The notes below the pieces were generated by a model that was not told the DNA's origin, ran no database searches, and saw only the letters and a program-made list of their open reading frames with translations. Source: Chitinophagaceae bacterium (GTDB lineage: Bacteria > Bacteroidota > Bacteroidia > Chitinophagales > Chitinophagaceae). From it: DNA of 64,000 bases. The translations under genes and the position numbers were made by a program. This document shows, one piece after another, positions 23,237-56,728 of this stretch (its first letter is position 1; every line of letters begins with the position of its first letter). The DNA is taken from contig JANWIJ010000062.1 in NCBI GenBank assembly GCA_025449935.1, positions 1 to 64,000 of the forward strand, written 5' to 3'.

Positions 23237-26200
23237 TTAGAAACCAATGTTTATACCAAATGATACGGTCCTGGCCGGGGGTATTGTGTTATAATCCAAA
23301 CCTCTTTCATCAATATTGTCAGGATCAATACCGGTATAATCAGTAATTACAAACAGGTTCTGTGCCTGTATAAAGAATCGGAATGATTTAACCGCATTTT
23401 TAAGAAGACGGCCCAGCAGATCAGGACTGACATTATAACTGACTGAAAGATTATCAAAGCGGATAAAATCGCCGTCTTCAATAAACCGGGTAGAGGCCTG
23501 CTGGTTGAGGTTGGTAAAATTATCACGGTTATACCAAAGCCTGGGAACATTGGTTACATCACCGGGTTTTTGCCACCTGTTCAGAATCTCCCTGCCGTTA
23601 TTCATAAAGCCCTGGTTCATTAAAGATTCCTGTTTAGTGATGTTCATGATTTTGTTACCGCCGGAAAACCTGAATAACATATCAGCCGTAAATTGTTTAA
23701 AACGGATCGTACTGGTAATACCTCCAAAATAAGTGGGCAATGCGCTGCCAAGTATACCACGGTCGGTTCCTGCCAGGCTTCCCGCAGCACCCTGGATGGG
23801 ACTGTTGAGGTCTGAGATAACGAAGTAAGATGAATTAGTGATATTGCCCATCAGCAGTGTCCCATCTGCTTTAATATAAACCGGGTTACCGTTTGAGGAA
23901 TTCACACCGGCATACTGGTAACCGTATAAAGCATTTACAGGTTGCCCAACTCGCTGGATATTATAATTACCCGTTCCGTTTGAAACGATGATATCATTTC
24001 CACCCGGAAGGGAAAGTACCTTATTTTTTTGATGCGTGTAGTTGAACCCTACATCAATACCCAGGTCTTTGTTTTTTATGATAGCTACATTAAGGGAGAG
24101 TTCGATGCCCTTATTTTCCATGTCCCCGATATTCTGGAAAATCTGGTTGTTCGGGATACCGAGGGAAGGAGGATAGGGAACTCCGAATACAAGGTCATTG
24201 TTTTTATTTTTAAAATAATCAAAAACAATATTTACCCGGTCTTTCCACAATGAAAGGTCTACACCGACATCAATTTTTTCATTGGTTTCCCATTGCAGTG
24301 CCGCATTACCGGATTGTGAAGCCGCGATACCACTGATGGCTCCATAAGGGGCAACACCGTATAAATTCTGGAAAGGAAAGTTTCCACCGGCAATATTAGC
24401 ATTACCCACTTTTGCCCAGGAGGCTCTTATTTTAAAGTCGCTGAAAATTTTGTCAAATCCACCGCCACTCCAGAAGTCTTCCTGGGAAACTCTCCAGCCA
24501 ATAGAACCGCCGGGGAAAGAACCAAACCTGTTCTCCTTGGCAAACCTGGATAAACCGTCTCTCCTGAAACTAGCCTGGATAAAGTATTTTCCCCTGTAGT
24601 CATAATTAATACGACCGAAGTAAGAAAAGATCCCGGGGCCCTCAGAATAACCACCACCGGAAAGCTGTGTTACATAGCTTCCGCTGATAACATTTTGTTG
24701 CTGGAAAAAGGCATCAGCCACATTGGTACCCGAGGCAGAAAAACTATTATTTTCCTGGTTCGCAGCTTCAATCCCAACTGTTAAATTGAACGCATGTCTT
24801 CCAAATACCTTAGCAGCATTGACATATTCCTGGGCTGTCCAGCGCAACGTGTTGGCAGCCTGGTTGCTTACCCTGCCCAATACACTTCTGCCATCTCCAT
24901 GTTTTGCATCCTGGCGGAAGAACTCATCCAGCGTGATATAATCAATACCAACTTTAATATTATTTGTCAGCCAGCTGGTGGGTTTAATTTCTATCCCAAA
25001 ATTGTTGATCACCCTGTGTTTTTTGGAACGGAATTTATTCTTGGCCAGTACATAACCAATATTCACATAGTTGTTCTCAATCGTTCTTGTATTGGCATCT
25101 CTTCCCAGGGCTGCACCATCCGGCGTGATATTATAGAAATCAAATTGCGGGAGCGCAGGATTCTTCAGCCTTACATTGGGTAAAGCCCTGAGGGCAGCCG
25201 CTACACTTCCTGAAAGAGCGTTACCTCCATTATTCTGATCCTTATCAAAACTGCGGGCCAGTGTAATGTAGTTGGTGATTTTAAGCCATTTGTTGACTTT
25301 GTGTTCAAAATTGGCCCTGATATTATAATTCTCTGTTGTATTTGTTAAGACTAACCCCTCCTGGTAACGATAATTAAAAGAAAGGAAATACGTGGTACGA
25401 TCGTTACCGCCATCCATCGAAAGGTTGTGCGTGGTGGCTTGGGAAGTAGGCCTGAAAACTACATCCTGCCAGTCAGTCGTGGAATTATCCGCGTTCGGGA
25501 ATGCGCCATTCGCAAGGCTGGCCGCAGATAATTTGGCATTGGCAATGGTAATAAATTCATTCGCATTCAGCAGGTCAAAACGACTAAGCGGTTTTGAGAA
25601 GCCAAAAACGGTACTGTAATTAAAGTTCTGACGACCTGCCCTGCCTTTTTTTGTAGTGATCATTATTACACCATTGGATGCCTGGGAACCATAAATGGCC
25701 GTGGCGCTTCCATCCTTTAATACATCAATTGACTCGATATCTAAAGGGTTGATATTGGCCAACAGGTTATCATTGGTAAAACCGGCAAAGCCTCCTGAAA
25801 AAGTAGGGATGCCATCCAATACGATAAGTGGTCCGCGGCCGCCGCTGATTGAGTTTACACCCCTGATACGAATGCGCGGAGGTTCATTAACCAGTCCCGT
25901 AGGATTTGTAACCAATACACCTGCGGTGCGGCCACCTAATTGTTTATCGATACTGGCACTCACGAGCGGCGCGATGTTGGTGGGATCAATTTTGCCGATA
26001 GCTGCGGTTGCCTCTTTTTTCTTTTGTGTGCCATATCCTACCACCACAACTTCCTGCATTATTTTGTCCTCGTTTTTCAGCACTACGTCGATGGAAGACT
26101 GTGACCCGATATTCAGTTCTTGTGTCAGCATGTCTACCGAAGAGACAATCAAAACTCTTGCGTTTGCCGGTACGGCGAGACTATAAGCCCCACTGGCGTT

Positions 26201-26356
26201 CGTAGTGGTACCGGTCGTGGTGCCTTTGACCATCACCGATGCATTTGCAACCGGGCTTCCTTTGTCGTCGATCACCTTACCGGAGATGGTACGTTGTGCC
26301 AATGCCTGGGTGGCAAGAAACACAACTCCAAACAGGAGTAAAAACAGTTTTCTCAT
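23237..26356 (-). CDS. SusC/RagA TonB-linked outer-membrane transporter
   Basis: 1039 residues. A signal peptide ends in ALAQ (about residue 20). Next is a carboxypeptidase-regulatory-like domain ('TISGKVIDDKGSPVANASVM', about 22-100), then the TonB box and plug: 'EVVVVGYGTQKKKEATAAI', 'IRIRGVNSISGGRGPLIVLD', 'IESIDVLKDGSATAIYGSQA', 'NGVIMITTKKG'. The rest is a 22-strand barrel ending in a C-terminal Phe (TVSFGINIGF). It takes up large nutrients with its SusD partner, using energy from TonB. No sigma/FecR pair lies directly beside it. Confidence 0.97.
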   Translation of the reverse strand: MRKLFLLLFGVVFLATQALAQRTISGKVIDDKGSPVANASVMVKGTTTGTTTNASGAYSLAVPANARVLIVSSVDMLTQELNIGSQSSIDVVLKNEDKIMQEVVVVGYGTQKKKEATAAIGKIDPTNIAPLVSASIDKQLGGRTAGVLVTNPTGLVNEPPRIRIRGVNSISGGRGPLIVLDGIPTFSGGFAGFTNDNLLANINPLDIESIDVLKDGSATAIYGSQASNGVIMITTKKGRAGRQNFNYSTVFGFSKPLSRFDLLNANEFITIANAKLSAASLANGAFPNADNSTTDWQDVVFRPTSQATTHNLSMDGGNDRTTYFLSFNYRYQEGLVLTNTTENYNIRANFEHKVNKWLKITNYITLARSFDKDQNNGGNALSGSVAAALRALPNVRLKNPALPQFDFYNITPDGAALGRDANTRTIENNYVNIGYVLAKNKFRSKKHRVINNFGIEIKPTSWLTNNIKVGIDYITLDEFFRQDAKHGDGRSVLGRVSNQAANTLRWTAQEYVNAAKVFGRHAFNLTVGIEAANQENNSFSASGTNVADAFFQQQNVISGSYVTQLSGGGYSEGPGIFSYFGRINYDYRGKYFIQASFRRDGLSRFAKENRFGSFPGGSIGWRVSQEDFWSGGGFDKIFSDFKIRASWAKVGNANIAGGNFPFQNLYGVAPYGAISGIAASQSGNAALQWETNEKIDVGVDLSLWKDRVNIVFDYFKNKNNDLVFGVPYPPSLGIPNNQIFQNIGDMENKGIELSLNVAIIKNKDLGIDVGFNYTHQKNKVLSLPGGNDIIVSNGTGNYNIQRVGQPVNALYGYQYAGVNSSNGNPVYIKADGTLLMGNITNSSYFVISDLNSPIQGAAGSLAGTDRGILGSALPTYFGGITSTIRFKQFTADMLFRFSGGNKIMNITKQESLMNQGFMNNGREILNRWQKPGDVTNVPRLWYNRDNFTNLNQQASTRFIEDGDFIRFDNLSVSYNVSPDLLGRLLKNAVKSFRFFIQAQNLFVITDYTGIDPDNIDERGLDYNTIPPARTVSFGINIGF

Positions 26357-26546
26357 GTGCGTTTAGTTTTAGTATATAAATGAAATCAACCCCCCTGGTT
26401 AAAAGGGACTTGAAATTAATTAACCTAAGGCGAAAAAATGAAAAAATCTTAAGATCGGGAATAAGAGCCTGCCCCGTGATGATAAACCTTAACCTGTCTT
26501 AAAACCACTCAATTATAGTGACAATCCGTACTGGTCATTTGCTGCA

Positions 26547-35303: not shown

Positions 35304-35957
35304 ATGTTAGATCAACTTTTTAACCTGGTGAAGCAATTCGGGAAAGATACAGTGGTTGATAACCCCGAAGTACCCAACGAGTATAATGAAGAGATAATGG
35401 CCGATGCTACAAAAACTGTTGGAAGCGGTTTGCAGAATATCATGTCCGGCGGCGGTTTCCAGAGTATACTTGATCTTTTTAAAGGAGGTGCGAATAAGTC
35501 CGGAAGCAATGGCGGCGGTATCGGGGGACTTCTCAAAAACCCGATCGTTACGATGATGGTTGGTTATTTCATCAGCAAACTGGTGGGCAAGTATAAAATG
35601 AACGCATCTTCCGCCAGTAATGTGGCGAATAATCTTATACCGAACGTCCTCAATGGTCTTATTTCCCGTACTGCCAGCACAGCTCCCGAAAATGATGCTT
35701 TTGACTTCAATGACCTGATTGGATCGCTTACCGGCGGAAAAGTCCCCACTTCCGAATCAAGCAGCAATGGGTTTGATTTCCAGGGACTGCTGAATCAATT
35801 CACCGGAGGCGGCCAAAGCGGCTCAAAAGAGGGTAATGGATTCAATATACAGGATATCGTCAGCCAGGTAACCCGGGGAGCCCAGGAAAACAATGAACAG
35901 CAAACCAGCGGCGGTGGAGGATTAATGGACATGATCAAAGGACTTATGTCCCGTTAA
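35304..35957 (+). CDS. Glycine-rich conserved protein, DUF937-like
   Basis: 217 residues. The N-terminal half has 'MLDQLFNLVKQFGKDTVVDN' and a repeat-like 'GLQNIMSGGGFQSILDLFKG', then a hydrophobic stretch ('IVTMMVGYFISKLVGKYKMN', about 77-96). Two Gly/Asn/Ser-rich segments of the form 'GFDFQGLLNQFTGGGQSG' follow. This pattern of short amphipathic helices between Gly-rich parts resembles the DUF937/YidB group, but the match is from memory only. No signal peptide. Function unknown. Confidence 0.7.
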   Translation: MLDQLFNLVKQFGKDTVVDNPEVPNEYNEEIMADATKTVGSGLQNIMSGGGFQSILDLFKGGANKSGSNGGGIGGLLKNPIVTMMVGYFISKLVGKYKMNASSASNVANNLIPNVLNGLISRTASTAPENDAFDFNDLIGSLTGGKVPTSESSSNGFDFQGLLNQFTGGGQSGSKEGNGFNIQDIVSQVTRGAQENNEQQTSGGGGLMDMIKGLMSR

Positions 35958-36280
35958 TCTGCTTGTATTATAAAAACCCTTCCCGGAAAAGCTCAATAAC
36001 TTTTTCTTTCGCCGAATAATTTTTGGCATGAAATTTCGCTTGTAGTAACGTGAACAGTTACTTTAAGTGACTTGAGATCTTTGTTTGTTGATTGTCAGTT
36101 GTTAATGGAATTACAGTTATGCCGGTATTGATTAAACGAATTGGCAGGTTGTAAATTCTTGAACCAGTCATCGTAAAGCTTACGATTGTTAGCGGAAGTT
36201 TTACCAGGAAATAAATAGGGGTAATTACCGGGTCGGGCCTTTTATACTTTCATTAACAGCAAGTTTAATACTATCGGCAG
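35958..36280. other. Intergenic region with a dyad
   Basis: AT-rich, about 320 bases with no convincing frame on either strand. It holds a 7-base inverted repeat ATCGTAA-AGC-TTACGAT at 36170-36186, which could be an operator or a weak hairpin. The following unit starting at 36281 is listed separately. Confidence 0.5.
36170..36186. promoter_or_regulatory. Inverted repeat ATCGTAA-AGC-TTACGAT
   Basis: A perfect 7-base dyad with a 3-base centre, about 110 bases before the -7 box at 36281. It could be an operator for the unit downstream, but no protein is known to bind it. Confidence 0.3.
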
Positions 36281-36288
36281 TAAATTTG
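36281..36288 (+). promoter_or_regulatory. Promoter -7 box TAAATTTG of an orphan transcript
   Basis: An exact TAnnTTTG followed by CG in a gene-free region. No open reading frame of useful size follows it on the + strand before the terminator at 36356. Confidence 0.45.
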
Positions 36289-36293
36289 CGTTA

Positions 36294-36386
36294 TACTGTT
36301 ACAAATCTTATTATAAAAGCAGTCAATTTTCTCATAAGCAGTTAGTTTTGGTTGCGACCCCTGTTTCCACAGGGGTCTATTTTTTT
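36294..36386 (+). ncRNA. Candidate small RNA, about 90 bases
   Basis: Between the -7 box at 36281-36288 and a very strong intrinsic terminator at 36356-36386 there is no reading frame, and the flanking genes are the end of a + gene over 300 bases upstream and the 3' end of a - strand gene. A promoter-terminator pair of this kind defines a small transcript. The 5' part is AT-rich with little structure; the 3' part is the terminator hairpin. It does not match tRNA, tmRNA, SRP or RNase P RNA. The start site is inferred from the box. Confidence 0.4.
36356..36386 (+). terminator. Strong intrinsic terminator
   Basis: A 9-base perfect stem (GACCCCTGT with ACAGGGGTC), a TTCC tetraloop, then TATTTTTTT. 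It works on the + strand only, since there is no T run on the - side. The next gene downstream is on the - strand. Confidence 0.85.
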
Positions 36387-36760
36387 ATATACCTCCTGGT
36401 ACTAAAAATCACTCCCAGTAAAGAGCCTGCAGCATCTGCCAGTATATCCCCGGCATCAAAAGACCTGTTTGGAATAAAATTCCCCTGGACCAGCTCCATC
36501 GTAATCCCATATAAGAGACATCCGACACCGATGATATAGAATGTTTGTTTGTTTTTCCGGGATAGCCCCCTGCACCAAAGCCACGCAAGAAGTGCAAACA
36601 GGAGGATATGCACCCATTTATCGAACCATATTTTACTCAGCCAGTCTTCCTTTGGAAACTGTGAACCAGGCAGGGTTAATAAAACAGTAGAGATTATTAA
36701 CCACAAAATGGCAGGAATAAACGTCGGCTTTGGTTCTTTCAACGCTAAAAATTTCAGCAA
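36377..36760 (-). CDS. VanZ-like membrane protein
   Basis: About 127 residues from the TTG at 36760. Other in-frame TTG codons lie at 36742 and 36820; the one at 36820 is inside a hairpin and is disfavoured. Four membrane segments are visible: 'FIPAILWLIISTVLLTLP', 'KWVHILLFALLAWLWCRG', 'TFYIIGVGCLLYGITMEL' and 'AGDILADAAGSLLGVIF'. The conserved 'MELVQGNFIPNRSFDAGDIL' is the VanZ-family signature (ExxQ and R-x-D). The founding VanZ gives low-level teicoplanin resistance; the usual role is unknown. The stop overlaps the terminator stem of the unit on the other strand. Confidence 0.88.
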   Translation of the reverse strand: MLKFLALKEPKPTFIPAILWLIISTVLLTLPGSQFPKEDWLSKIWFDKWVHILLFALLAWLWCRGLSRKNKQTFYIIGVGCLLYGITMELVQGNFIPNRSFDAGDILADAAGSLLGVIFSTRRYIKK

Positions 36761-36810
36761 TATTAATGGTAAGATGCGGGATTCCGGCCCGGGTATTTTA
36801 TTAATTGAAA

Positions 36811-36830
36811 GGAGCCCCAAAAGGGGCCCC
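36811..36830 (-). terminator. Hairpin after the anti-sigma gene
   Basis: On the - strand GGGGCCCC-TTTT-GGGGCTCC folds into an 8-base stem with one G-U pair and a TTTT loop, followed by only a short T run. It lies between the anti-sigma gene and the VanZ gene and could end or attenuate the sigma operon transcript. Confidence 0.5.
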
Positions 36831-36930
36831 TTGTTTAACCAACTATAGAACCAAACTCCTATAGCAATATAGGTGCACGCGTCAAATACGGCGAAACAAG
36901 ATGGCCAGATTGAAAAGCTGAGTAAGAATC

Positions 36931-56655: not shown

Positions 56656-56728
56656 GTTCAACATTGGCCAATGCTCCGGGTATGCCGAAAACCGGGAAAA
56701 GAGTAAGCATCAATTAAACTCAACAAAC

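Follow-up and report, generated by a model that had tools for sequence, protein, structure and literature searches.

Positions 36281 to 36386 on the plus strand of the window, that is, of the whole 64,000-nt stretch of Chitinophagaceae DNA analyzed here, are likely to hold a stand-alone small RNA (sRNA) gene with a product of about 93 nt, a putative member of a multi-copy, trans-acting sRNA family of the Chitinophagaceae. Each copy of the element consists of a nearly invariant core, UUCUCAUAAGCAGUU(A/G)GUUUUGGUU, followed by a terminator hairpin, the stem of which covaries. The RNA itself was taken as the product, acting in trans, because the module occurs both with and without a host mRNA, and the RNA family probably regulates other genes. 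An earlier note, made from the letters of this DNA, had proposed a candidate small RNA between an orphan promoter and a terminator; at the level of sequence, conserved promoter elements, a conserved core, and a covarying terminator support that reading.

Organization of the predicted sRNA gene

The unit and its neighbors comprise the following features.

36239..36390, plus strand: whole conserved unit (promoter, RNA gene, and terminator), delimited by the conservation profile and by the long genome matches, most of which begin at query position 7 to 11 (about 36239)
36253..36258, plus strand: TTAACA, putative -33-like element; 116 of 123 class A sequences contain TTAAC
36281..36288, plus strand: -7 box TAAATTTG, from the sequence; of the 123 class A sequences, 62 have TAnnTT(T/C)(G/A)CGTT and 50 have the exact TAnnTTTG
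36294..36386, plus strand: predicted sRNA of about 93 nt, with the 5' end placed from the -7 box and the 3' end from the T run
36315..36330, plus strand: AAAAGCAGTCAATTTT, partial direct repeat of the core, from the sequence, mainly in class A; its bin is 0.89 conserved
36327..36353, plus strand: core TTTTCTCATAAGCAGTTAGTTTTGGTT, proposed seed on account of its near-invariance across copies
36356..36377, plus strand: terminator hairpin GACCCCTGT-TTCC-ACAGGGGTC, perfect over 9 bp, supported by covariation
36380..36386, plus strand: T tract (seven T), from the sequence; predicted transcript end
36377..36820, minus strand: VanZ-like gene (PF04892, by Pfam), convergent neighbor, whose stop codon reaches into the sRNA unit at its 3' end (36377)
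35304..35957, plus strand: upstream same-strand gene from the ORF list, without a Pfam match, tentatively labeled DUF937

From 5' to 3', the unit runs through TTAACA, TAAATTTG, a variable AU-rich stretch, AAAAGCAGTCAATTTT, the core TTTTCTCATAAGCAGTTAGTTTTGGTT, GC, the 9-bp hairpin, TA, and seven T. The exact -7 box starting at 36281 and the perfect 9-base hairpin with a TTCC loop and seven T, both described in the earlier note, were found at the positions listed above. The interval between box and hairpin had been said to lack a reading frame; indeed, no open reading frame (ORF) of at least 40 amino acids (aa) lies wholly inside it, and no ATG was seen there. A 63-aa ORF from a TTG begins at 36348, crosses the hairpin, and runs antisense into the VanZ-like gene, which lies on the minus strand as claimed. 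The nearest same-strand gene, said to have ended over 300 bases earlier, does end at 35957, 324 nt ahead of the box. Judged by its sequence, the unit has the makeup of a trans-acting sRNA gene, namely, a promoter and a terminator of its own and no ORF.

Consensus matching alone was not above chance, with 2 terminator-like sites in 1.2 kb versus 1.7 in shuffled sequences. The unit was judged real because its conservation exceeds that of its surroundings and not because of consensus scans. The predicted RNA fold had a z score of -3.2; the core was unpaired in the centroid fold and partly paired in a weak hairpin in the minimum-energy fold.

Conservation at the locus

When the window was aligned with 19 loci of the same genus, identity per 20-nt bin was 0.81 to 1.0 across 36251-36390, except for 0.66 at 36291-36310, which corresponds to the variable 5' part. 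The bin with most of the core reached 1.0, and all 27 core nucleotides were identical in 19 of the 19 loci aligned to the window. In the same alignment, identity was 0.14 to 0.54 in 36111-36230 and 0.32 to 0.73 in nearby coding bins; the value of 0.01 in the last bin of the profile is an edge effect. With 36230-36395 as the query, matches were obtained in 40 of 42 same-genus genomes, the window's own included, and in all 33 of the 33 good-quality ones. These genomes typically had one best match, to which most added one to three short ones. The span from TTAAC to CGTT was 39 to 40 nt in 63 of the 123 distinct class A sequences. Alignment with relatives had been proposed beforehand as a check on the small RNA reading, and its outcome was favorable: the core and terminator are conserved, the stem covaries, and the -7-like box recurs in class A at the frequency listed above.

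The earlier note had also raised the concern that the unit might merely be the trailing part of the upstream 35304 gene, namely, a long 3' untranslated region (UTR) with its terminator. The two do share a strand, and the scan detected no terminator-like plus-strand site between 35957 and 36356. However, the 324 nt between the gene and the box is poorly conserved DNA, after which a conserved promoter follows. Moreover, six small-genome loci carry the unit after prfA without a 35304-type gene. At these loci, the distance from the prfA stop to the core is 80 to 141 nt, so that read-through is possible there. For the window, a mere 3' UTR of the 35304 gene is hardly tenable.

Core and terminator hairpin across copies

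When up to 3 mismatches were allowed, the core matches in 20 of 21 genomes were perfect or differed only at the A/G site, apart from two with 2 and 3 mismatches; the aligned sequences were picked by their core, and part of the core's invariance reflects the selection. In the stems of 57 sequences, likewise picked by their core, 98.2% of cells were paired, and 7 of 9 pairs had changed on both sides. Seven both-side pairs were reached in 2 of 500 shuffles, and the covariation score was reached in 0 of 500. The hairpin tip, GT-TTCN-AC, is nearly fixed in genome copies, while the stem letters differ.

A general terminator feature was considered and rejected, since 464 kb of DNA from the window's own genome held 113 terminator candidates, of which 2 had GTT(A/G)GTTTTGG ahead of them, and both of these belong to this sRNA family. 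The shorter TTGGTT was found before 22 of 200 terminators versus 2.5% of random stretches, in a mixed sample with orthologues left in and with part of the signal coming from a second motif. Such a second recurring 3'-end motif, CTATAG-GAGTTTGGTT-CTATAG-TTGGTTAA, was seen by eye before a GGGGCC terminator at 36813-36890 on the minus strand, between an anti-sigma gene and the VanZ gene. Related forms with GTTTTGGTTCTATAGTTGGTTAA stand before terminators in 8 loci (L005, L006, L015, L018, L110, L112, L120 [partial], and L263).

Distribution and genomic contexts

The window's own genome has three strong copies, one in the window, one at C39:657-716 after a small-peptide gene, and one at C97:74875-74936 after hsp20; the core is common to all three except for one A/G position. 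Beside an apparent tRNA gene of the same genome, a shortened form consisting of TTTTCTCAGTTAGTTTTGGT and a terminator was observed by eye (L138, C35:64171-64219).

Model R1 of the element matched 236 of 294 family genomes at an E value of ≤1e-3 and 207 of 294 at a best E value of ≤1e-8; the 29 of 236 matching genomes with a best E value of >1e-8 may represent ordinary terminators, and the window's own genome has two such matches as well. At the order level, 10 of 119 sampled genomes matched at ≤1e-7, including one weak match in another family. At the phylum level, 6 of 247 sampled genomes matched at ≤1e-8, all within the window's own family. Exact-core records among the matches listed (at least 119 stretches) included ones named Sediminibacterium, Niabella, Segetibacter, and Terrimonas, with the culturable species Sediminibacterium salmoneum, Segetibacter koreensis, and Terrimonas ferruginea among them, in addition to MAGs with other labels. 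From these named records, Chitinophagaceae would be the host family of the element.

Genomic contexts were collected for 249 copies chosen by their core (up to 3 substitutions), with some loci repeated: 139 were at the prfA/VanZ locus, 52 in an hsp20 3' UTR, 11 close to the genes that accompany the C39 copy, 4 in the vicinity of hsp20, and 43 elsewhere. For the copies in hsp20 3' UTRs, the core was located 6 to 35 nt past the stop in 41 distinct cases, and a divergent disulphide-isomerase gene (PF06491) flanks hsp20 in 49 of the 52 hsp20 contexts. The element also occurs beside the disulphide-isomerase gene with no hsp20 in the fetched locus, in 13 distinct loci from 13 genomes of 1.5 to 2.1 Mb; this set amounts to 19 rows of the 43 contexts elsewhere, 6 of them repeats, and the absence of hsp20 applies at the locus level. 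We read the persistence of the element at these loci as pointing to selection for the RNA rather than for an hsp20 tail.

In small genomes such as those of L051 and L058, a GAGAACTTTCACAA-like block and CGTCTA lie between the disulphide-isomerase gene and the element, at most about 90 nt upstream of the core. They are possibly a promoter left from hsp20.

Copies on viral contigs

In IMG/VR, the exact core was present on 20 stretches and a looser core at 28 places on 27 contigs, some of which are near-identical. All 28 viral copies, which were found by their core, match the model, and one of them is cut off by the contig end. All 9 of the stem pairs had changed on both sides in a model-fitted alignment of 38 matches, of which 33 were distinct and some were weak. 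There was no blastn match among the annotated phages and plasmids of INPHARED and PLSDB; thus, the phage evidence comes from the IMG/VR contigs. One 48-kb viral contig holds two copies, L460 and L462, with different hairpins.

Proteins beside a copy or within 2 kb were compared with PHROGs for L449 to L454, L456 to L458, L460, L461, and L463 to L468. Portal proteins were found directly upstream of the copy in L453 and L458, one gene away in L450, and 1.8 kb away in L456. Other matches were to a tail spike or fiber (L457, weak), Mu Gam (L452), a terminase (L461), a DNA methyltransferase (L466), a nucleotide kinase (L451), and families of unknown function (L449 and L464). The tested proteins of L454, L460, L463, L465, L467, and L468 had no PHROGs match.

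The core lies 4 to 11 nt past a stop codon in 13 of the 28 viral copies. In four more (L456, L459, L460, and L462), an ORF ends on a TAA inside the core (CATAAG), and the core would overlap the gene end; in L456, the gene ending in this way matches a PHROGs lipoprotein family. In L460 and L470, TAnnTTTG ends 3 to 4 nt ahead of the core, and with this -7-like box just before it, the transcript could begin at the core.

The positions close to stop codons, together with the 52 (redundant) hsp20 3' UTR contexts among the 249, are what would be expected of a cis-acting 3'-end cassette, that is, an mRNA stabilizer or an improved terminator for hsp20 and phage genes. However, many of the 139 contexts at the prfA/VanZ locus have their own promoter and so offer such a cassette no mRNA to serve. 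The element also stays at the 13 loci without hsp20, and the -7 box directly precedes the core in L460 and L470. A cis-acting cassette is quite unlikely, and the trans-acting sRNA is preferred.

Candidate targets of the core

As a trans-acting sRNA, the module would be produced either from its own promoter or as the 3'-terminal part of an mRNA, and the RNA would act through its core. One candidate target lies 10 kb from the unit.

23240..26356, minus strand: SusC/RagA-type TonB-dependent receptor gene (TIGR04056, 768 bits; PF07715 and PF13715), candidate target
26348..26370, minus strand: candidate target site in the start region of the SusC-like gene, with in-register core complementarity AAAACTAA-6 nt-ATGAGAAAA and a duplex energy of -22.8 kcal/mol

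The predicted pairing of the core with this start region is suggestive. Ungapped pairing of the 25-nt core was scored against the start regions of 1132 genes of the family, which were unselected for SusC or for the element. The best of these was the window's SusC-like gene, with 20.5 of 25, a score reached by 11 of 500 shuffled cores. Three starts scored at least 19 versus 0.38 expected (5 of 500) and seven at least 18 versus 2.5 expected (14 of 500), with no excess among the 1132 at a score of at least 17 (18 versus 13.75 expected, 99 of 500). An excess was also present in 301 starts outside the family, with 4 versus 0.95 at a score of at least 18 (10 of 500) and 11 versus 5.2 at a score of at least 17 (14 of 500). 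Homologous receptors in two genus relatives (53 to 57% over the N terminus) pair better, with 22.0 in L098 and 21.5 in L085; these and other loci were fetched for resemblance to the RNA and are left out of the 1132-start test.

In raw counts, the gapped pattern AAAACTAA-8 to 30 nt-ATGAGAAA showed no enrichment, with 105 matches in 66 of 147 genomes versus 334 in 124 of 147 for the ATGAAAAA control; the pattern omits the 6-nt gap, so in-register targets are uncounted, and at least 2 of the 105 (L431 and L438) are divergent copies of the element. The ATGAGAAA:ATGAAAAA match ratio of 0.31 equals the 40:132 ratio of these starts. Because of the excess outside the family and the lack of enrichment of the gapped pattern, the receptor target is given modest weight.

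Further pairing tests gave no clear signal. Of 20 shuffled cores, 3 outdid the real core in the mean duplex energy of the 20 best hits and 6 in that of the single best hit, and the summed 8-mer excess was reached by 70 of 500 shuffles. AAACTAA was found before 4 of 20 ATGAGAAAA starts versus 70 of 2911 (P = 0.001), a difference that was lost on k-mer correction, and L040, one of these four, had been retrieved because it resembles the RNA. No long complementary (antisense) partner of the core was found in 21 genomes. Self-pairing at hsp20 was considered as well and was rejected as not conserved, with AAAACTAA before hsp20 in just 14 of 41 distinct starts.

The weak pairing tests would be in keeping with a different role, in which the core binds a protein, the RNA serves as a titrating decoy, and the 3' UTR copies bring that protein to the hsp20 and phage mRNAs. 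At about 25 nt, the near-invariant stretch exceeds the usual length of a seed and would fit a protein-binding site as well, and the tip of the hairpin is nearly fixed in genome copies. The window's own genome encodes four RRM_1 proteins, and in Bacteroides an RRM protein, RbpB, binds the FopS sRNAs (PMC11697453). On the other hand, a site that is either A or G would be compatible with pairing to U. In addition, pairing and protein binding are not exclusive, since FopS does both. We regard the decoy as unlikely and retain the trans-acting sRNA as the preferred reading.

With less support, the core of the trans-acting sRNA may pair with the start regions of some outer-membrane receptor mRNAs, for example, that of the SusC-like gene at 26356. 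Such pairing might block receptor translation, perhaps together with an RRM protein, as is the case for the FopS sRNAs with RbpB in Bacteroides. A family-wide receptor-silencing RNA common to host and phages is very unlikely. If it did exist, stand-alone and heat-shock-coupled copies in the host would turn down SusC/TonB-type surface receptors, and phages would carry the same RNA, driven by genes or promoters of their own, as a means of silencing surface receptors during infection.

Comparison with known sRNAs

The unit had no match at the gathering threshold among the 4227 families of Rfam 15, and five sub-threshold matches appeared at a permissive threshold. PyrR (RF00515) and MicX (RF01808) were matched over the full length, terminator included, but weakly, with 22.7 bits versus a gathering score of 54 and 19.5 bits versus 75, respectively; the unit is a member of neither. 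The sole Rfam match of the window is a DUF805b RNA motif (RF02914) at 56675-56709 on the plus strand, which, at 39.1 bits, is above its gathering score. A literature search found nothing on this RNA.

The well-studied Bacteroidota sRNAs met here come from Bacteroides. An RNA that is present in 207 of the 294 sampled family genomes, is often coupled to hsp20, persists in streamlined genomes at a locus lacking hsp20, and occurs on viral contigs would open a way into RNA regulation in this large group of environmental bacteria, and with its near-invariant core, one probe or pull-down should be usable across genera.

Several of the sRNAs OmrA/B, Qrr, and LhrC of other phyla are linked to Hfq. In these seed-sharing paralogous sRNAs, which are named in PMC11697453, several gene copies share sequence and targets.

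Among known systems, FopS of Bacteroides comes closest. It is a group of paralogous sRNAs, related to GibS, in which a terminator is combined with a seed that is single-stranded; these sRNAs repress susC mRNAs and bind RbpB, in a genus that lacks the classical RNA chaperones (PMC11697453). The family predicted here resembles FopS in having multiple sRNA copies within a lineage of the Bacteroidota, here too one that would lack these chaperones. Both have a conserved 5' part that is single-stranded (by prediction in the present RNA), a Rho-independent terminator, and housekeeping-type promoters; for FopS as well, one copy is derived from a 3' UTR and the sequence is reported in a phage. FopS acts at susC start regions, and a SusC-like start is the candidate target here. 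The comparison was made by described features and not by seed letters, and it also reveals differences: FopS belongs to the Bacteroidaceae, whereas the present RNA belongs to the Chitinophagaceae; 14 copies are reported for B. thetaiotaomicron versus three strong copies in the window's own genome; viral copies are more numerous here; and the target and the RRM partner here are candidates. In general, this is a new sRNA family of a known kind, and what is surprising about it is its reach, its persistence without hsp20 at the locus, and its presence on viral contigs.
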